Shown in pieces: positions 3,001 to 35,314 of a stretch of DNA of 64,000 bases; position 1 is the stretch's first letter, and each line of letters opens with the position of its first letter. A program made the translations under genes and the position numbers. Under the pieces are notes generated by a model, which was given only the letters and a program-made list of their open reading frames with translations, was not told the origin of the DNA and did not search any database. The DNA is from Gemmatimonadaceae bacterium (GTDB taxonomy: Bacteria; Latescibacterota; UBA2968; UBA8231). The stretch lies in contig PBSR01000275.1 of assembly GCA_002726335.1 (NCBI GenBank), forward strand, positions 1-64,000. The letters are read 5' to 3'.

Positions 3001-5283
3001 CTAATAGGCGAGATTGATCAGGCGTTGCACGGTCTGCTCGCCAGTATCGGCGGCCAGTTTGATCTGGCAGACGTAGATGCCCGGCGGCAGCAGCATTCCC
3101 CGTTCATCGCGTCCGTCCCAGGAATAGACATCGGCACCCGCAGCCACCGTCTGTACCCGCCGACCGGACAGATCGTAGATCGAGACCTCAGCTTCGCTCC
3201 CTTCGACCTTGGCCAGAGCAAAGCGGATCGTCGCTTCATCGTTTACGCCGTCGGCGTTCGGCGTCACCAGCGACGTCACCTCTACCTGGCGAATCAGACG
3301 GTTGCCGCTGGCGACCGACGGTACGAACACCGTCGCCGCTTGCCACTTCTGGGGACGCGTCCCCTGTCGCAGATCCTGCCCTACACGACCCACCCAGGCG
3401 TCGAATGCCGTGGCATTGGCCTGCACTCGTGCTTGAAAGGACACTTCTACCGAGTCCCCTTGGACCCGCTGCGGCAGATCAACCTGCAGCGAGTCACCAC
3501 GCATCTCCACGAGCAGCGGGATCACGGCTTCCCCGCCTACCTGCACCGACACCTCCTCGACGGCGTCCGGAGTCAGGATCAGCACGCGGTCGAAGCCCTG
3601 GTCACCGCTACGGAACGTCGGCTTGAGCACGTAGGTGAATGTCTGTAACGAGTCGAAAGCGACCTGTCGCGGAAAGATCCGACTGGTGATGCCACCACTG
3701 ACCAGTGCCGCGTCGAATTGCAGCGCCACATGATGCAGCCGGGGCGTAACCTCGGGGTCGTCGTTGCCGAGTTTGATCTGCAGCTGGGCGTAGCGGCGCG
3801 GGGATGGCGACTGGAACACGCCCTCGGGAGTCGTGTAGACCGGGCTCCAGCCGGACCAGTCGGAGCCCGGCCGCTGGATCTCGACAACATCCTGTTTCTG
3901 CGACTTGGGAAGCTTGTTCCATTGAGCCTCGGTGACTTGCTCACCGTTCTTGTGGTAATACTCCTGCTCGAAGAGAAATGTATCACCCGTCTGCGACCGG
4001 ATCTCCATGTAGGTACCCTGGGGCAGGTCGGCGTCCCATGACAGGCTGCGGATGCTCTTGGTTCCGCCCAGATCGATGAATCCCGACGTCATCTCGGCTT
4101 CCGCCGCATACCCCCTGCCATATAGGGCATATTCCAGAATGGTGTACCACACCCTGATGTCGGAGAAACTGACGCGACGGAAGAAGATGTGGCGCGCCTT
4201 CCTCAGGGGGAAGTTGAGGTCGTACCAGTGCTGAACAGGGCTGCCGGTGGCATCTACCAGGGTGAGTGGCTTGTAGTCGAACTCGCTCTGCGCCCGATCG
4301 ACGGTCAGGCCGTCCAGAGGCGTGCCGTCTGATGTCGATATCTCAAAGTCTTCAACGTACAGCGTGCGGTGCCCGGGAACACTGACCTCTATCACCATAC
4401 GGTCCAGCCAGTAGGCGGCACCCAGGTCCCACGCCATGAAGTGCCCTTCCTCGATCCAGCTGTTTTTTCCTGTTACGGTCCACTTGGTGTTGTGATCTCC
4501 GTCACTGAGGGAGGCACTGTTCTGGACATCGGTACCGACGCGGATCGACCCACCACGATCGATACTGTCCAGCGCCAGGTTCTCACCGATCGTGATCACC
4601 TCGATTTCGGCAAGGGCCGCCCCTGGCTGCATCTCCTCGGCGACGAAGCGCACGTACTGCACGGGGGCAAAGTCCAGCGTGTCCGATGTGGTCAGATGAT
4701 CTCCTACGCTGCCGCCTGGATCCAGTGTCCGCAGCGAGAATTCAACCACACGATCTTCGTTGGGAAGAATCGTACGGCCCGCGCGTGCAAAGGCGAACAC
4801 GTCTTTTGCCGCGACGTATCGCTCACCGTTGCTGGTGTAGACACTGAAATTGCGGAAGGGTTCAGCGTCGGTGGTATCAGGAAAGATCAGGCGGACCTTG
4901 GTGGCGTAGACCATGCGGCCCAGATCGACCCCGAACCACCAGTCGTCGATCCCGTCGGCCGGGTCGGGTTGCCACCAGGTATCGGCCCTGCCATCGATGA
5001 CATTCTTGACCGCGTCAGCTGCAGAATGTGAAGAGCGAACTCCGCCGGGGATGGGCTCTCTGCTGCTTTTCACCACGTGGAAGAACTGCTGCGCATCCGC
5101 CACGGCATTGATCTCCGTCTCCACCCGTCGCAGGCTGATGCTGCCGTCCTCGTGCTGTGCCAACACACTGCGAGGGAAGGTCCACGAGTCCCAATCCACC
5201 TTGCTCTCAAGACGAAGCTCGTCCGCAGAGGAGGCGATGCAGGCAGCGACAACACATGTAACGATCGTGAATCTGAGTCGCAT
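3001..5283 (-). CDS. secreted discoidin-like protein with FlgD/Ig-like C-terminal tail (paralogue)
   Basis: 760 residues, lying tail to tail with the preceding gene and only 33 bases from it. A signal peptide occupies about residues 1-20 (ends in ASSADE). Domains follow the same order as in the paralogue: discoidin-like region with NVIDGRADTWW and GVDLGRMVYATKV, a second copy around LSDGDHNTKWTV, then a highly conserved central block (SRIFPRQVAFDSLQTFTYVL is identical in both). The C-terminal FlgD/Ig-like module has TPNADGVND, DLSGRRVQTV and LPPGIYVCQI, ending in NLAY. The central block is also similar at DNA level, suggesting a fairly recent inverted duplication. Likely a surface or extracellular protein; substrate unknown. 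Confidence 0.8.
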   Translation of the reverse strand: MRLRFTIVTCVVAACIASSADELRLESKVDWDSWTFPRSVLAQHEDGSISLRRVETEINAVADAQQFFHVVKSSREPIPGGVRSSHSAADAVKNVIDGRADTWWQPDPADGIDDWWFGVDLGRMVYATKVRLIFPDTTDAEPFRNFSVYTSNGERYVAAKDVFAFARAGRTILPNEDRVVEFSLRTLDPGGSVGDHLTTSDTLDFAPVQYVRFVAEEMQPGAALAEIEVITIGENLALDSIDRGGSIRVGTDVQNSASLSDGDHNTKWTVTGKNSWIEEGHFMAWDLGAAYWLDRMVIEVSVPGHRTLYVEDFEISTSDGTPLDGLTVDRAQSEFDYKPLTLVDATGSPVQHWYDLNFPLRKARHIFFRRVSFSDIRVWYTILEYALYGRGYAAEAEMTSGFIDLGGTKSIRSLSWDADLPQGTYMEIRSQTGDTFLFEQEYYHKNGEQVTEAQWNKLPKSQKQDVVEIQRPGSDWSGWSPVYTTPEGVFQSPSPRRYAQLQIKLGNDDPEVTPRLHHVALQFDAALVSGGITSRIFPRQVAFDSLQTFTYVLKPTFRSGDQGFDRVLILTPDAVEEVSVQVGGEAVIPLLVEMRGDSLQVDLPQRVQGDSVEVSFQARVQANATAFDAWVGRVGQDLRQGTRPQKWQAATVFVPSVASGNRLIRQVEVTSLVTPNADGVNDEATIRFALAKVEGSEAEVSIYDLSGRRVQTVAAGADVYSWDGRDERGMLLPPGIYVCQIKLAADTGEQTVQRLINLAY

Positions 5284-5391: not shown

Positions 5392-7329
5392 TCAGTACAT
5401 ACGAATCCGGTTTCCCGTCATGCCGGTAATGCCGTCGACGATGGTCCAGACACCGCCGGCGACGAACTGTCCCAGGACCATGCCCAGGAAGAACCAGCGC
5501 GTGGCGCGATAGCCGTTGGCTCCCAGATAGTGGAGCACGAGCACCTTGACCAGCCACGCCAGAAAGATGCTGAACCAGATGCTGTTGAGAATCCAGGTAC
5601 CGCCGGCGATGAAGCCGATGGGGTGCAACGGCCACCACAGCAGGTTGTGACGCGCCCAGATCAGACTGGCCACGACCACCGCGCCGACGCCGTTCCACAG
5701 CCAGCCGTCCCAGTTCGGACCCGTGGGATTGCGCGCCAGATTCGCGGCAAAGCGGAAGGGCTCCCTGGCGAACCAGGCCCACGAACCGTGGTAGTTATTG
5801 GCCCCGTATTCATAGCTCAACACGATGATCGTAGCCACGCCGCCGACCAGACCGATACCCATGGCCAGCGCCATCATCACCAGGATCCGGCGTCGGTAAC
5901 GGCCCAGACCGTGGAGCATACGGATGCCGTTGGCACAGGGAGCCATCATGAACACGAGCAGGTCCCCCGCCCACGCCAGGGTCATTCCCGACGCTACCAC
6001 GGCTTTGACGCCGAGCGCGGTGGAACCCAGGCTCGAGACCAGGACGCCGCAGCCGGACATCCCCTGCACTGCCGCCGCCAGCCCCCCCTCGACGATCATA
6101 CGTGTCAGGGCAAAGAAAATGATGAAAGCCGCAGCCAGGAACAGGCAGACGGCCCACAGAGACAGACCCGAACTCCAGAGCCAGCAGCCCATGACAGCAA
6201 CGCCTGACAGTACCCCGATGACCGCCACGCGGTAGGAGATCAGCTCCTCGGCATCAGATCGATCGCCGTTGCGCCAGACGTGCTGTACCACGTCCCACAG
6301 ATGCCGCCTTGCCGTCCAGAGTCCCAGCATGACCATGACGACCATGCCGCCCAGCACCTGATGACTCAGAATCCCCGTGTGCGAGGTATGGCTGAAGATA
6401 TCGAGCCCCTCGGTATTGAACACGCCGATACGAACAAAGAAGGCCTGCTCGAGCTTGGCCAGCAGGAAGAAGAACCACAGGCTGAAAGTGATGCTGGTGT
6501 TGACCAGGTAGGCGAGGCCGGTCCACATGCAGTCGAAACGCAGGTGCAGCGTCACCAGGTTCGGGACCAGCGTGAACCAGTGGGAGGGCTCCAGCGTGCC
6601 GATGAACTCAAAATAGTGGCTCAGACCGTTGATCCCGTGCAGGATGCAGGGTACCGAGGCCCCCACCCACATTGCTGGCTGTCTGAGAAATGGCCGTCCC
6701 GGGGATCTGCCGTCCTGCACCATGCTCAACGGTACCTGCGTCAGCGGATACAGCAGGCGCTCATGGTCCATCCACTGCCGACGCATCACCACCATGAAGC
6801 AGACCACGACGGTGTAGAAGGCGATCATGAACACGAACCACCATGCCAGCGGCTCGACCCACGGACCCCACGGAATCGACTCGCCTTCGGACAGGCCTTC
6901 GTAGAACCCTTTGATGGCGCTCGGAGACTGTGGTGTCATCCACGTGGGCACGTGCGGCACCAGCAGGTCCGCCCAGTCGTTCTCGGGAGTCGCAAAGTAG
7001 CCAACCCCGCTGATGATGGGGATGGCGATGCTGACGAAACCCCTGCCGGCGATGGCGGTGGTGATCATCATCATCACCGACATGCTCAGCAGCTCGGCCC
7101 GCGTGAAGGACCATCCAGGCCTGATCGCACCGAGTACGGGTTGCACGAGTGCGACCAGCAGAAAGAGTAGAAAGAAAGCCGCCGGCGTCGACGAATTCAG
7201 CCCCATCTGCGTCCCGTTGAGGACAAACTCTCCGTACGGCAGCCCCACGGCGATGACGCCACACAGGAGTACCCCGGCGAGTATGGCGCGTACCCGGATG
7301 CCGACATGCGTGGGACCCGCGGTCGTCAA
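5392..7329 (-). CDS. DUF6785/DUF6784-type polytopic membrane protein
   Basis: 645 residues with about a dozen hydrophobic segments. The family signature is recognisable: PENDWADLLVPHVPTW, then FYEGLSEGESIPWGPW, then MRRQWMDHERLLYPL. Such proteins, common in planctomycetes and uncultivated FCB-group bacteria, have no assigned function; they resemble multispanning permeases. No good ATG exists at the front: the best start in frame is a TTG at 7329, leading directly into the first membrane helix (VRAILAGVLLCGVIAVGL). A sulfatase remnant ends 18 bases upstream, so it was probably part of a sulfatase-containing transcript. A paralogue lies at 28518-30422. The family call is fairly sure, the transport role is inference. 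Confidence 0.75.
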   Translation of the reverse strand: MTTAGPTHVGIRVRAILAGVLLCGVIAVGLPYGEFVLNGTQMGLNSSTPAAFFLLFLLVALVQPVLGAIRPGWSFTRAELLSMSVMMMITTAIAGRGFVSIAIPIISGVGYFATPENDWADLLVPHVPTWMTPQSPSAIKGFYEGLSEGESIPWGPWVEPLAWWFVFMIAFYTVVVCFMVVMRRQWMDHERLLYPLTQVPLSMVQDGRSPGRPFLRQPAMWVGASVPCILHGINGLSHYFEFIGTLEPSHWFTLVPNLVTLHLRFDCMWTGLAYLVNTSITFSLWFFFLLAKLEQAFFVRIGVFNTEGLDIFSHTSHTGILSHQVLGGMVVMVMLGLWTARRHLWDVVQHVWRNGDRSDAEELISYRVAVIGVLSGVAVMGCWLWSSGLSLWAVCLFLAAAFIIFFALTRMIVEGGLAAAVQGMSGCGVLVSSLGSTALGVKAVVASGMTLAWAGDLLVFMMAPCANGIRMLHGLGRYRRRILVMMALAMGIGLVGGVATIIVLSYEYGANNYHGSWAWFAREPFRFAANLARNPTGPNWDGWLWNGVGAVVVASLIWARHNLLWWPLHPIGFIAGGTWILNSIWFSIFLAWLVKVLVLHYLGANGYRATRWFFLGMVLGQFVAGGVWTIVDGITGMTGNRIRMY

Positions 7330-11554: not shown

Positions 11555-11616
11555 GAGGGTCGACAACGGCACCGTAGACCGCAGCGTAGTGGCCGTAGGT
11601 GCCGGTGTCGGCCCTC
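11555..11616. repeat. imperfect 28-base hairpin 3' of rlmKL
   Basis: Left arm 11555-11582 and right arm 11589-11616 form a long imperfect stem around a 6-base loop; the shared core is CGGCACC against GGTGCCG. The right arm contains CCGTAGGTGCCGG, 13 bases also present at the edge of the structured element at 33822-33848. Both copies lie just after the stop codon of a minus-strand gene. It could be a 3' UTR structure, an attenuated terminator without T-run, or a dispersed repeat. Confidence 0.5.
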
Positions 11617-30475: not shown

Positions 30476-33463
30476 CTAGAATGGTGAGATCAACTCGACG
30501 AAGAGAACGCCCTGCTTGCTGTCCGGCCTGCCTGGAAGGGTGTAGTTCCGCCGCGTTCGCTGGTAGCCGATGAAAGCTGAGTTGTCACGGATTCCGAAAT
30601 AGTCGGAGGTGAGTCTGAACATTACAAGGTAGTCGGTCTGGGTGAACGTCCCCTCCCTGCGGGCACGGTCCCAGTGCTTGTACGGTAGCATGGGCAACCC
30701 CTGCGCCCCCAGCTGCAAACCGGTCCGGGGCGTCAAGTGGTAGTGAGCCAGTACGATGGGGATGAAATCGCTGTAGGAAGTACGCGGGGTGGTCTCGTTG
30801 TCCACCTCCTCGAAGATCGTCCGATGCTTGAACTTCGGCGTGACACTGAAGGGGCCACGTGACCAGGTGTAATCTATCCTGTCAACCACCGAGAAGCGGG
30901 TGTACACTGCCGCCGGCTGCAGCAGACCGATGCCCTGCTGCAGCTCGATTTCGGACTGACTGTTGCGGAACCACAACATGGCGTGATCCAACCGGGTATT
31001 CCTGAAGCCCAGGTACTCTGCATCGGCAAACACCAGGTGTACGCGGCTGTCCCGCATCTGCAGCAGGTCGGGGGTGGGTGGACGTCGGAATCCTGCAACC
31101 TCTGGAGGGCCGTCCGGTCGATTGTACCAGTTGATGAACTCGAGATCGTCAGGCGGTACCTGGTAGAGGAAGGTGTGATCGACGATGTCGTCCTCCACCT
31201 TCTTCACATCGAAGTGGAGCTGCAGCCTGGCGACGCCCTTCCTCTCCACGTCGTAGGCGTAGCGCAGGTACAGTGCCTCGGAGTGGCCACCGCCGACAAT
31301 CTGCCGGGTGTCATAGTGGCCGACGGAGATGGACCTGCCGAGACGGCCCAGTCGATTGAGCCGCAGAAAAACGTGGCGGCCCCGCTGATCGCGTGGGTAG
31401 GGATAATCCGGTCGATCGTCGTTCTCACGGAAGTCGGGCACGCCATTGTTGTTGAAGTCGATGCCGTACACGAACTCCGGGGGCTCGGCGTCGTACGTAA
31501 GGAAGGGTTCCTCCCAGTCGACGATGAAGTTCTCGTTGCGGTCCACATCGGCCACGTTGTCGACGTTTTCGTCGAGACCCGGGTAGACACCGGCATTCGG
31601 CCACCCGGGATAGAGTTCACGCGGCTGGGCCACCGCATTGTCTCCCGAATGGTCGTCCGCAAAGCGGTCGTGGTCATCGTTGTCTTCGTGGAGGGGAAAC
31701 TCATGGGTGACCGACTCGATCCTGTCACCGGGCTTGCCCTGGCGATCGATGTGGAATGCCAGACCGCCACGGTAGCTGTCGTAGCCGCCACCGTAGTCCG
31801 GCTCCATGCGGTAGAGCTCAGCACCCAACGCCACACCCTGTAGCAGATCCTTGGTTCCCTTCACCCACCACGCCCAGGCACGCTCGGCACTTCGCCGACC
31901 CTCGTTGTCGCCCACGGGGAACATGAAGTTGCGCAGGTTGTGGGCCAGTTCACCGTTGAACTCCAGCCCGACGAGTTCGGCCGCCCAATTGACCGATGCC
32001 AGACTTTGACCGGTGGGAATGCCGTAGTCAAACCAGACGGCCTGCCGATTGTCTGCAGTACCCCGGCCACCCGCGGCCCGCACGACGGTGTAGTACGGTT
32101 CCTCTTCCTCGTCCACGTACCACTTGTGCGATCTCCGGTTGGGGGCCTCGCTTCGGTGGAAGGAGGCGGGCCACTCCATCTCGGCCTGCCCCACCGCACC
32201 GCTGCGGTCCACATTGAAGAAATCGTGGGTCTGGCGCACGCCGATGCGGAAATCCCCCGCCACATCGGCAACGAAGCGGGCCGATCGAAGGGACACGTCT
32301 GCGGGCAGGTTGAAGGTGTAGATCACCGGTTCGCCACCCACAGCCTGACGGCCGCCACCGGCCAGTGGCGTGCCGCCACTCGGTGGCGAGGCTTCGAGAG
32401 CGGTGTCGTAGTCGGGATCACCGTCGACACTGGTGAGTCGGACCGGTTGCCCGGCGCGCTCGCCCTCGAGGACCACATCCACCCCGTACGCCCGGGCTGT
32501 CGCCCGGGCTTCCTCCGGGGAATCGTCAGCGATGAAGACGCGGATCATCCTGGGTGCCTGCATCTCGTACGGGATGTCACCACGCCAGAAGCTGCTGCGG
32601 GACGAGGCTGTCTGGTTCATGACCTGGTTCACCAGCGTGCCACCCAGCGTGGCGTATTCACCCAGATCATGTTGCCAGTGGCCGCCGAACTGGAGCACCG
32701 GGGACGGATCCCAGGCGTCGTTGCCCTCAGCCTGCGCCCATTCTGAGAACAGTAGGGCCGTACCTTGCTGGCCTCCGCGGGTGTAGTACAACGTCGCACG
32801 ATCCCGATCCCGGTAACTCAGGTCCATGCGGACCACGTTCTGCCGACTGTTGGCCAGGGTGAGAGGCGTGAACATCGTCCGCACTGAACTGGCGCTGACA
32901 CCGTTGCCCACGGTGGCCGTCCAGTGCAGATCCTTGTACGCGTAGTGGCCGATGTAGAACTGCAGGCGCTTGTGGTCGATGTAACTGTAGCCGCTGAAGT
33001 CGCTGCCGCTGCGCGACTCCTCGATGCTCAACACCCGCTGGTAGTCGCCCCCCATGTAGTTGCCCATACGATCCCAGCGCACATTGCGCGTGTTCATTGG
33101 CCGACCGGTGGCCTTGACCTCTCTGAAGCTCGTTTCTCCGCGGGAGTAGAGGATGTACTTCTCGTCGGCATAGTTGCGGTAGGAAAGGCCATTGCTGGCG
33201 TTGAGAAAGGCCCGACCCCACCCGCGCCGGTACCGATCCCGGGGACCGCGCAGGAAGGCGGGACGCTGCTTCCAGGCCGGTTCCCGGGGCGTGCCGGGAT
33301 CAGCGTTGTAGTAGGGCAGGGGACCCGCAGACTCGGGGTGGCGTTGCCCCTGAGCGGGGGACAGGAAGCCCATGCCGGAGCAGAGGCCTGCAACCATCGA
33401 CCAGCGCCCGGCTGAGCGCATCGGTGCAGCGAGAAACGACACGTAGACCCCTCGCGCTCCCAT
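30476..33463 (-). CDS. large outer-membrane beta-barrel protein with EF-hand-like calcium motifs
   Basis: 995 residues. Signal peptide at ~15-40 (AGLCSGMGFLSPAQGQ). The first ~330 residues and last ~300 are rich in alternating aromatic strands and end in a C-terminal phenylalanine (ELISPF), fitting a barrel. In the middle lie two acidic DxDxN-type loops: VADVDRNENFIVDWEE (~residue 650) and DFNNNGVPDFRENDD (~685), like thrombospondin type 3/dockerin calcium loops. I do not recognise a named family; similar large proteins occur in FCB-group genomes. The ATG at 33463 has GAAGG ahead; a second ATG at 33421 begins nearer to the signal helix. A promoter with a perfect -35 lies ~60-80 bases upstream. 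Confidence 0.7.
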   Translation of the reverse strand: MGARGVYVSFLAAPMRSAGRWSMVAGLCSGMGFLSPAQGQRHPESAGPLPYYNADPGTPREPAWKQRPAFLRGPRDRYRRGWGRAFLNASNGLSYRNYADEKYILYSRGETSFREVKATGRPMNTRNVRWDRMGNYMGGDYQRVLSIEESRSGSDFSGYSYIDHKRLQFYIGHYAYKDLHWTATVGNGVSASSVRTMFTPLTLANSRQNVVRMDLSYRDRDRATLYYTRGGQQGTALLFSEWAQAEGNDAWDPSPVLQFGGHWQHDLGEYATLGGTLVNQVMNQTASSRSSFWRGDIPYEMQAPRMIRVFIADDSPEEARATARAYGVDVVLEGERAGQPVRLTSVDGDPDYDTALEASPPSGGTPLAGGGRQAVGGEPVIYTFNLPADVSLRSARFVADVAGDFRIGVRQTHDFFNVDRSGAVGQAEMEWPASFHRSEAPNRRSHKWYVDEEEEPYYTVVRAAGGRGTADNRQAVWFDYGIPTGQSLASVNWAAELVGLEFNGELAHNLRNFMFPVGDNEGRRSAERAWAWWVKGTKDLLQGVALGAELYRMEPDYGGGYDSYRGGLAFHIDRQGKPGDRIESVTHEFPLHEDNDDHDRFADDHSGDNAVAQPRELYPGWPNAGVYPGLDENVDNVADVDRNENFIVDWEEPFLTYDAEPPEFVYGIDFNNNGVPDFRENDDRPDYPYPRDQRGRHVFLRLNRLGRLGRSISVGHYDTRQIVGGGHSEALYLRYAYDVERKGVARLQLHFDVKKVEDDIVDHTFLYQVPPDDLEFINWYNRPDGPPEVAGFRRPPTPDLLQMRDSRVHLVFADAEYLGFRNTRLDHAMLWFRNSQSEIELQQGIGLLQPAAVYTRFSVVDRIDYTWSRGPFSVTPKFKHRTIFEEVDNETTPRTSYSDFIPIVLAHYHLTPRTGLQLGAQGLPMLPYKHWDRARREGTFTQTDYLVMFRLTSDYFGIRDNSAFIGYQRTRRNYTLPGRPDSKQGVLFVELISPF

Positions 33464-33516
33464 GGGAGCCTTCGAAGAAGGTGGATCTACCAGGGCATCG
33501 TGAGTTGGCTTGATCG

Positions 33517-33545
33517 ATAAAGTATGATTGCTACAGGTCTGTCAA
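33517..33545 (-). promoter_or_regulatory. promoter upstream of the barrel/DUF6785 pair
   Basis: On the minus strand a perfect -35 TTGACA (33540-33545) is followed after 17 bases by CTTTAT (33517-33522, 3 of 6), or after 15 bases by TACTTT. The region is AT-rich for this genome. A transcript starting near 33510 would have a ~45-base leader before the ATG at 33463. Confidence 0.5.
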
Positions 33546-33651
33546 CGGCACGGTGTTGCCGGAGGCGCCGACGCCTGCCTCAGCCGCGCATCGCAGTTCG
33601 GGGGTGGGTGGTTGGGCCAGGCCAACGTGAGTGCTGCGGGAGGAGTGCCGA

Positions 33652-33848
33652 GGGTTCACGCTGGCACCGAGGTGGCCTTGAGCGAGGCCAGGCATGACCG
33701 AACAGGAACGCGCAGCGTTCCGTTCAGGCCCGAAGGTCGCGCGCCAGGATGGCGTGCGCGGACTGAGCCGCAGGATGCGGCGTTCAGTCCGCCGGTGAGG
33801 TCATGCCCTAGGCCGAGCGGTGGCCACCGTAGGTGCCGGCGTGAGCCC
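33652..33848 (+). ncRNA. nested multi-hairpin element, candidate structured RNA or dispersed repeat
   Basis: No credible gene fits here. An outer imperfect stem joins 33652-33677 to 33822-33848 (about 23 of 27 positions agree). An inner stem joins 33686-33699 to 33799-33814 (GGCATGACC against GGTCATGCC, plus GGCC ends). Inside are three clear hairpins: 33700-33725 (loop GCA), 33738-33758 (loop GGA) and 33760-33790 (13 pairs, loop GGA), and a short one at 33727-33738 (loop CGAA). Several imperfect pairs (two in the outer stem, one in the second hairpin, one in the short hairpin) are G-U on the plus strand but A-C on the minus strand, favouring plus-strand RNA. The two GGA loops sit in CAGGATG. 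The element touches the sugar transferase stop codon. No promoter was identified. Confidence 0.5.
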
Positions 33849-35314
33849 TACCGCGTACTCTTCCCCGCCAGCACGAACCAGATCGTACGAATCATGATCG
33901 AGAAATCCAGCAGCAACGACGCGTTCTCGATGTAGTAGAGATCGTATTCCAGACGCTCAGCGGCGATGCTGGCAAAATCCGTCGACTGCATGTCGAATTC
34001 GTGCTTCGATTGCGCCCATCCCAGAAGACCTGGCTTGACGTTGAAACGGCGCATGTAGAACGGGATCTCCTGCGAGAACCTCTCCACGAAGAACGGACGT
34101 TCCGGTCGGGGGCCCACCAGGCTCATGTCGCCGCGCAGGAAATTGATACACTGGGGGATCTCGTCGAAGTGCAGGGCCCGCAACACGCGCCCCACACGGG
34201 TGACGCGAGGATCGGCATCCTTGACCCACGTCGGCCCCGTCTTGTCTTCGGCTTCGACCACCATCGACCGGAACTTATACATCGTGAAGGGTTTCCCCTT
34301 GCGCCCCACACGCTCCTGACGGAACAGGATGGGACCGCGCGAATCGAGGCGGATGGCGGCCACCACCAGCAGCCACAGCGGCGCCATGCCGACCAGCACG
34401 AGCAGCGCCACGGCGATGTCGGTGAGCCGCTTGGCGGCGCTCTCCCAGGGGGCCATCAGCTGCGGTCGCAGCTCCATCAGGGGCACACCGTAGATCTGGT
34501 TCGTGCGCACGTGACCGGTGACGATATCGTAGAGGTCGGGGGTGATGCTGAAGGAGACTACAGACCCGGGTCCACCCGCCGCCTCGACAATGCGCAGCAC
34601 ATCCTCGTGGCTGTTCGATTTCAGGGCGATCAGCACCGACTCCACGCCACGCTGGCCGATGATCCGCCCCAGGTCGTCTACCCCTCCCAGCACGGGCAGG
34701 CCCTCGACGGTGTCCACCTCGGCGTCTCCGGGGGCACGAGCGAAACCGATGACCTCATAGCCCTGAGCCGGCGAGGTGAGCAGATCCTGCAGGAGCCTGG
34801 CTCCACGCTCGTCGGTGCCGACGATGATGGCGTTGTTGCGACCGATGCCACTGGTCAGCAGACGCCGCTGCAGCGTGCGCAGGACGGCACGTCCGCCAGC
34901 GACAAGAACGACCAGCGCCAGCCAGTAGGAGCCGACCAGCGCCCGAGTGAAAGTCATACCCTCCTGCAGATCGAAGGTAGCGATGAACAGCAGCAGGACG
35001 CCGACGGTGATGACCTTGAGTACGGCGATGCCCTCGTCGAGACGAGACGGCGTATGCTTTGGACGATACAGGCCGTTGAACACGAGCAGCACGAGCCAGC
35101 ACAGGTAGATGAGAGGCAGCGCATCCCAGAGGTAGTACTCGAGGACAAAGACGAAAGGCGGGCTGGTGAGGTCGGGATGCAGCTGATTCCAGGCGTAGGC
35201 CACGCTCCGCAGGGAGCCACCCGCATGTTTCATCCACAGCAGCGCCACCGTTGCCAGGTTGATAGCGACAAAATCGCTCACGGCCAGCAGGATTGTGATC
35301 CAGACCTGCGACAT
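33848..35314 (-). CDS. exopolysaccharide priming glycosylphosphotransferase (WcaJ/WbaP type)
   Basis: 488 residues. N-terminal four or five membrane helices, then a soluble nucleotide-binding-like domain (AIIVGTDERGARLLQDLL, ~165-180), then the catalytic bacterial sugar transferase domain from ~300: KRLTDIAVALLVLVG membrane re-entrant helix, RQERVGRKGKPFTMYKFRSM, and FDEIPQCINFLRGDMSLVGPRPE. It transfers a hexose-1-phosphate to undecaprenyl phosphate, the first step of repeat-unit assembly. It is the last gene of a three-gene unit; its start is directly adjacent to the stop of the GT2 gene (one-base overlap). The stop codon abuts the structured element at 33652-33848. Confidence 0.9.
   Translation of the reverse strand: MSQVWITILLAVSDFVAINLATVALLWMKHAGGSLRSVAYAWNQLHPDLTSPPFVFVLEYYLWDALPLIYLCWLVLLVFNGLYRPKHTPSRLDEGIAVLKVITVGVLLLFIATFDLQEGMTFTRALVGSYWLALVVLVAGGRAVLRTLQRRLLTSGIGRNNAIIVGTDERGARLLQDLLTSPAQGYEVIGFARAPGDAEVDTVEGLPVLGGVDDLGRIIGQRGVESVLIALKSNSHEDVLRIVEAAGGPGSVVSFSITPDLYDIVTGHVRTNQIYGVPLMELRPQLMAPWESAAKRLTDIAVALLVLVGMAPLWLLVVAAIRLDSRGPILFRQERVGRKGKPFTMYKFRSMVVEAEDKTGPTWVKDADPRVTRVGRVLRALHFDEIPQCINFLRGDMSLVGPRPERPFFVERFSQEIPFYMRRFNVKPGLLGWAQSKHEFDMQSTDFASIAAERLEYDLYYIENASLLLDFSIMIRTIWFVLAGKSTR

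Follow-up and report, generated by a model that had tools for sequence, protein, structure and literature searches.

The structured element and its setting

The window, by which we mean the whole 64,000-nucleotide stretch of DNA analysed here, belongs to a Latescibacterota genome and carries an intergenic structured element that immediately follows the stop codon of a sugar-transferase gene and is oriented against that gene (Table 1). The nearest relatives of the sugar transferase are encoded in MAGs titled Latescibacterota, Gemmatimonadetes or similar, and the loci L002 to L009 were all placed in the same 64-genome phylum as G001, the genome that holds locus L001. The MAGs of L003, L004, L005 and L009 are titled Gemmatimonadetes, Gemmatimonadaceae or Gemmatimonas phototrophica and group with the Latescibacterota-titled phylum; these gemmatimonad-type titles may be outdated. 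The 995-residue protein encoded on the other side of the element has 59 homologues, some of them named from Latescibacterota, and this pattern of sequence relatives suggests a lineage family. Elsewhere in the window, a 729-nt inverted repeat (1849-2577 and 3391-4119, 74% complementary) sits within two long convergent reading frames (661-2967 on the plus strand, 3001-5283 on the minus strand) and probably represents two tail-to-tail paralogous genes.

Folding of the plus strand of 33640-33860 gave -155.1 kcal/mol, compared with -99.8 ± 4.6 kcal/mol for 200 shuffled sequences (z -12.0), and the minus strand of the same region gave -134.4 kcal/mol (z -9.0). When 2552 segments of 200 bases were compared with correction for G+C content, the segment starting at 33651 was the most extreme on either strand, at -7.8 sd on the plus strand (next unrelated stretch -3.7) and -5.5 sd on the minus strand (next -3.7). 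The best plus-strand fold is a single closed, branched structure that runs from outside to inside through P1, an internal loop, P2, P3, P4, a GA/GA step and a junction bearing the hairpins H1, H1b, H2 and H3. The outer helix has 18 uninterrupted pairs and a weak extension that brings it to 26 pairs and reaches into the end of the neighbouring gene. The loops of H2 and H3 both read A-GGA-T with the GGA triplets spaced 26 nt apart, three of the four hairpins have GNA triloops, and the G+C content of the element is ~70%. Mechanical open reading frames overlap 33651-33849, and none was judged credible as a gene. The nested outer stem, inner stems and hairpins claimed in a preliminary description of this gene-free stretch are thus confirmed, with four hairpins, as are its two GGA loops and its outer stem of about 26 pairs; the ends given need a small correction, the uninterrupted helix being one base wider on either side.

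Table 1. Positions in the window of the element, its parts and the adjoining genes
Feature	Position	Strand	Basis
Gene for 995-aa protein, no Pfam match at E 0.001	30476..33463	-	ORF list, Pfam
Whole structured element	33651..33849	+	fold z -12.0; extreme of 2552 segments
R1 match, 123 bits	33672-33827		covariance model
R2 match, 96.3 bits	33690-33808		covariance model
P1 5' arm, outer 18-bp helix (pairs with 33832-33849)	33651..33668	+	best fold
P2 5' side (pairs with 33822-33828)	33671..33677	+	best fold
P4 5' side (pairs with 33799-33807)	33691..33699	+	best fold and covariation
Tandem-GA step, GA (opposite GA 33797-33798)	33700..33701	+	alignment A5
Hairpin H1, loop GCA (in some copies only)	33705..33721	+	best fold, alignment A5
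Hairpin H1b	33727..33738	+	best fold, alignment A5
Hairpin H2, GGA loop 33747-33749	33739..33757	+	covariation
Hairpin H3, 2-base bulge, GGA loop 33773-33775	33758..33792	+	covariation
P4 3' side	33799..33807	+	best fold
P2 3' side	33822..33828	+	best fold
P1 3' arm (end touches sugar-transferase stop codon)	33832..33849	+	best fold
Sugar-transferase gene (Bac_transf, CoA_binding_3); stop codon 33848-33850	33848..35314	-	ORF list, Pfam

Copies of the element

Searches with BLAST and covariance models located the element in 6 of the 64 Latescibacterota genomes (G001, G053, G060, G061, G063 and G064), BLAST alone and model R1 alone each giving 5 of 64 and their union 6, and a permissive R2 search of 13 of the 64 genomes added one weak copy in G061. 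The 15 copies are distributed as one in the window, two in G001, one each in G053, G063 and G064, three in G060 and six in G061, so that carriers have between one and six, and the further copies that the preliminary description proposed to search for do exist. The two copies with weak scores, G061:C15:51199 (22.4 bits, E 0.11) and G053:C56 (30.8 bits, E 2.7e-4), were counted because their arms also pair, as judged by eye. Matches in L165 (G056, E 0.04) and L166 (G054, E 0.26) were not counted, nor were a remnant-like stretch in L002 and a half copy that follows the full G064 copy in tandem (L113, G064:C555, ~1656-1790). A degenerate copy was also seen in L082 (G001:C59, ~1440-1640), between two 22-base direct repeats, GACCTGAACTACTGTA(G/C)ATAAC. 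Within the window no second copy was accepted, the 18-23-base matches to the outer arms at 6561-6578 and 11593-11615 looking like chance.

Both GGA hairpins are present in 10 of the 15 copies and one or none in the other 5; the left copy of G060:C108 has no GGA hairpin, yet keeps a very long paired outer helix. In L001, where the sugar transferase is 89% identical, the element lies at the same place as in the window. Other copies adjoin unrelated genes, the neighbours in all including the sugar transferase, a DNA polymerase III alpha-type gene, a radical SAM gene, AnmK, a multihaem cytochrome, an aldo/keto reductase, an isochorismatase and a GFO/IDH/MocA gene. In G001, G063 and G064 the dnaE2-type gene and the radical SAM gene are separated by 5-6 nt, with no copy at their junction, whereas in G060 and G061 this junction is 483 and 624 nt long, respectively, and contains two opposed copies. 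Around the dnaE2-type gene of G061 (L184, G061:C29:289000-306000), three copies occur within 9 kb, one upstream and the two opposed ones downstream.

Beyond the phylum, R1 gave no match in 12 genomes. R2 gave none in 84 genomes of the phylum of the Poribacteria-titled L017 (at most 48 candidates scored per genome) and none in 395 genomes of the phylum of the Balneolales-titled L011 (at most 10 per genome), two nulls that say little because the filters were strict, few candidates were scored and there was no positive control. Distant blastn against plasmid records returned only short pieces in 5 records (E ~0.6), and IMG/VR yielded no relative when queried with one protein and two patterns. The element in the window is a copy of an undescribed structured non-coding family of one Latescibacterota lineage.

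Covariation and conservation

Two alignments were used, A2 (8 copies) and A5 (9 copies), which leave aside the partial copies and L001. The covariation test proposed in the preliminary description turned out strongly positive: in A5, both partners have changed in 18 of 36 pairs, a value reached by 0 of 500 shuffles, and 95.0% of cells are paired, compared with 31.3-42.8% when partners are slid; A5 was aligned without structure, but the structure scored is its own consensus, a somewhat favourable bias. In A2, both-side changes occur in 21 of 47 pairs. By helix, A5 has both-side changes in 8 of 10 pairs of P4 (counting the two pairs beyond the GA step), in 4 of 7 pairs of H2 with 100% of cells paired and in 6 of 15 pairs of H3 with 97.8% paired, and 8 of the 9 aligned copies retain the tandem GA. 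The loops are the most constant part of the element. Among the H2 and H3 loops of the ten two-hairpin copies, GGA is found in 19 of 20 and exactly CAGGAYG in 17 of 20; H3 of L001 reads AGA.

The core was compared with fourfold sites at two orthologous places. BLAST segments of the window and L001, which pick out the best parts, are identical at 84.7% of 98 nt and at 96% of 26 nt; in the neighbouring gene, 68 of 152 fourfold sites are identical. Between G060 and G061, H2-H3 is identical at 51 of 61 positions and the inner core at 87 of 111. The corresponding figures are 72 of 110 for the fourfold sites of dnaE2, 77 of 134 for the spacer once its 65 gapped columns are set aside, and 11 of 19 and 12 of 19 for the arms; the matching of copies between these two genomes is ambiguous, in that the loops pair right with right and the arms also left with right. 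At both places the core is more conserved than the fourfold sites. Because of this conservation together with the covariation, a functional structured element is supported, and we conclude that it is a real, evolutionarily maintained folded element.

Comparison with mobile repeats

The dispersal of the copies raises the alternative that the element is a non-autonomous repeat of the ERIC/MITE kind, whose fold would serve its own spread or the processing of host transcripts with no dedicated regulatory partner. Like such repeats it is 100-200 bp long, intergenic, strongly folded, often behind genes and dispersed. The placement beside unrelated genes, the dnaE2-type/radical SAM junction that is empty in three genomes and filled in G060 and G061, the partial copies and remnants, and the copy number of 1-6 per carrier all fit this alternative, and a review notes that mRNA can be affected by ERIC and by further repeats of 3' untranslated regions (PMC10969869). 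The same review describes MITEs as typically A+T-rich (PMC10969869), unlike the G+C-rich element. Further against the alternative, the terminal arms mostly differ and do not form a shared transposase site, the copies per genome are few, the neighbour proteins scanned contain no transposase domain, and the many compensatory changes and the orthologous conservation exceed what is expected of a decaying repeat. We consider an ERIC/MITE-like repeat without a dedicated partner a serious if tentative possibility, nearly as likely as the CsrA-type plus-strand RNA set out below.

Each arm pairs within its own copy, and most arms are unlike between copies. The outer arms are not wholly unique, since some resemble each other across copies, for example G060 left and G061 right. 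Pairing failed to beat all 200 shuffles for 4 of the 12 arm pairs tested (those of G060 right, of both G061:C15 copies and of G053), partly because of the flanks supplied to the test. A REP-like repeat with a RAYT, suggested in the preliminary description, finds no support: none of the 6 genomes examined, among them 5 of the 6 carriers (all except G053), yielded a Y1 transposase, while 5 of 14 control genomes were positive.

Strand of the element

With G-U pairs forbidden, the helices of the window copy contain 3 G/T and 0 A/C mismatches in plus-strand terms, as the preliminary description had noted of its imperfect pairs, and 11 copies together contain 22 G/T versus 8 A/C (binomial p 0.016, the counts not being independent). 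In the 8 rows of A2 the plus-derived structure gives 13 G/T versus 2 A/C and the minus-derived structure 8 versus 5, and the pairs common to both give 8 versus 2. Stability favours the plus strand in 8 of 10 copies, and the best folds of 10 copies contain 32 versus 25 G-U pairs, modest evidence on strand. The element would thus likely act as a plus-strand RNA; the bias of G/T over A/C is moderate and depends on the structure used. Of the functional plus-strand RNA proposed at the outset, the functional structured element is supported and the strand moderately so.

The converse reading is that the minus strand, transcribed in the direction of the sugar transferase, forms the 3'-end structure of an mRNA and works as a stabiliser, processing site or terminator-like block. 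For at least six copies (the window, L001, G060:C133, G060:C108 left, G061:C29 left and G061:C15:65687), a gene pointing against the element ends with its stop codon close by, and the minus strand also folds well (z -9.0). We nevertheless regard this reading as quite unlikely: the G-U bias is on the opposite strand, G060:C108 right and G061:C29 right lie upstream of gene starts, and a search of 33400-34000 found no terminator-like site, with 0 intrinsic terminators (a stem followed by a T run) on both strands.

A strand bias of this type might also arise if the element were a single-stranded DNA hairpin read by a recombinase or transposase, since tolerance of G-T on one strand cannot separate RNA from single-stranded DNA. 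GNA triloops are stable in DNA, and three of the four hairpins of the window copy have them. The loops of H1b and H2 also occur as GAAA and GGGA, the GNRA form that is typical of RNA, and this, together with the lack of a Y1 transposase in the six genomes searched, makes a DNA hairpin the least probable of the readings considered and very unlikely in itself.

Relation to known RNA families

Rfam returned no family in the window at the gathering threshold. On the opposite strand, Bacillaceae-1 (RF01690) scored 30.0, 26.0 and 25.6 bits in 3 of the 9 loci scanned, so that the best value lies below the gathering threshold of 35 and the element is not assigned to that family. Read as its reverse complement, Bacillaceae-1 resembles the element in having two adjacent hairpins with CAGGAYG loops; it differs in that its 67-position model lacks the P1-P4 framework and in its hosts, which are Bacillaceae and here Latescibacterota. 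A motif survey describes the strand of Bacillaceae-1 as uncertain, reports that its reverse complement matches the CsrA-binding motif and proposes it as CsrA-binding (PMC4333381). In the same survey TwoAYGGAY, with its tandem GAs, also matches that motif and is proposed as a CsrA binder (PMC4333381). On that description, the element shares with TwoAYGGAY (RF01731) two GGA hairpins and a tandem GA in the stem, but no sequence relation is detectable in the fold, and the covariance model matched none of the 9 loci with an E of 5 or lower.

The RNAs of the CsrB type carry many GGA sites along the molecule. With CsrB, CsrC, RsmX, RsmY and RsmZ the element has in common GGA hairpin loops at a bridging distance (26 nt) and several copies per genome. 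Unlike them it presents two constant GGA hairpins in one closed, branched fold, dispersed among unrelated genes.

The GGA loops and the occurrence of csrA

The element has two GGA hairpin loops, 26 nt apart, and 5 of the 15 copies lack one or both. A source on CsrA binding gives RUACARGGAUGU as the SELEX consensus, states that a pair of sites 10-63 nt apart can be bridged by CsrA, and notes that in most SELEX ligands the GGA lies in the loop of a hairpin (PMC7652899). Measured against that consensus, the CAGGAUG loops of the window are one base short of the core CARGGAUG, as are the loops of most copies; one copy reads CAGGGAUG. Most SELEX ligands have short stems, and those of H2 and H3 are longer.

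A csrA gene was detected in 22 of the 64 genomes of the phylum. Looking for it in the carriers, as the preliminary description had advised, succeeded in part: it is present in G061, the carrier with most copies, where CsrA begins with the usual sequence (MLVLTRKAGE...), and was not found in G001, G053, G060, G063 and G064. Rod-domain flagellar genes occur in 30 of the 64 genomes, including all 22 with csrA. The flagellar contigs of G060, G001 and G064 (43,434, 3,410 and 4,306 long) stop before the place where csrA is expected, a place that assumes the gene order of G061 and gene names assigned on these contigs from size and order. G053 and G063 have neither csrA nor rod-domain flagellar genes, and there no flagellar contig end explains why it was not found. 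Because the flagellar contigs end early in three carriers, we do not accept the failure to find csrA in five of them as a refutation of a sponge.

A possible docking site for a GGA-binding protein

For a family whose fold, dispersal, GGA-loop constancy and core conservation are shown by the analysis, the reading we tentatively place first, while holding it far from assured, is a plus-strand RNA whose twin GGA loops dock a dimer of the CsrA/RsmA kind, so that the element would serve as a small sponge or tether. The long outer helix, the stacked inner helices and the tandem-GA step would hold out the two GGA hairpins 26 nt apart, and a dimeric GGA-binding protein such as these would dock on the twin loops. 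We infer that the element is transcribed and that it binds a protein, for which CsrA would be the leading, unproven candidate. The 5 of 15 copies that lack one or both hairpins count against a pure CsrA role, as does the long outer helix kept by the copy that has neither. Also against this reading are the five carriers in which csrA was not found, the AGA in H3 of L001, the loops one base short of the SELEX core in most copies, the stem lengths of H2 and H3, the modest evidence on strand, and the search of 33400-34000, which found neither a sigma-70-like promoter nor a terminator-like site. Our literature search on Latescibacterota and CsrA found no paper, and on Latescibacteria and RNA the matches listed included general papers only.

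Should CsrA bind the element, this would make it an RNA of the sponge type found outside the Gammaproteobacteria, mean that sponge-type RNAs can be dispersed like mobile repeats, and lend support to the proposals on the strand and role of Bacillaceae-1. A further-reaching version, which we think unlikely, is a mobile, low-copy CsrA-titrating RNA outside the Gammaproteobacteria whose twin GGA loops capture CsrA dimers; every new insertion would then be an extra decoy, or a CsrA tether beside the neighbouring gene. Even without CsrA binding, the family remains a new structured one, marked by its very strong covariation and its constant twin loop. Either way it raises a testable question, namely which protein reads the twin loops in a phylum whose RNA biology is apparently largely undescribed.
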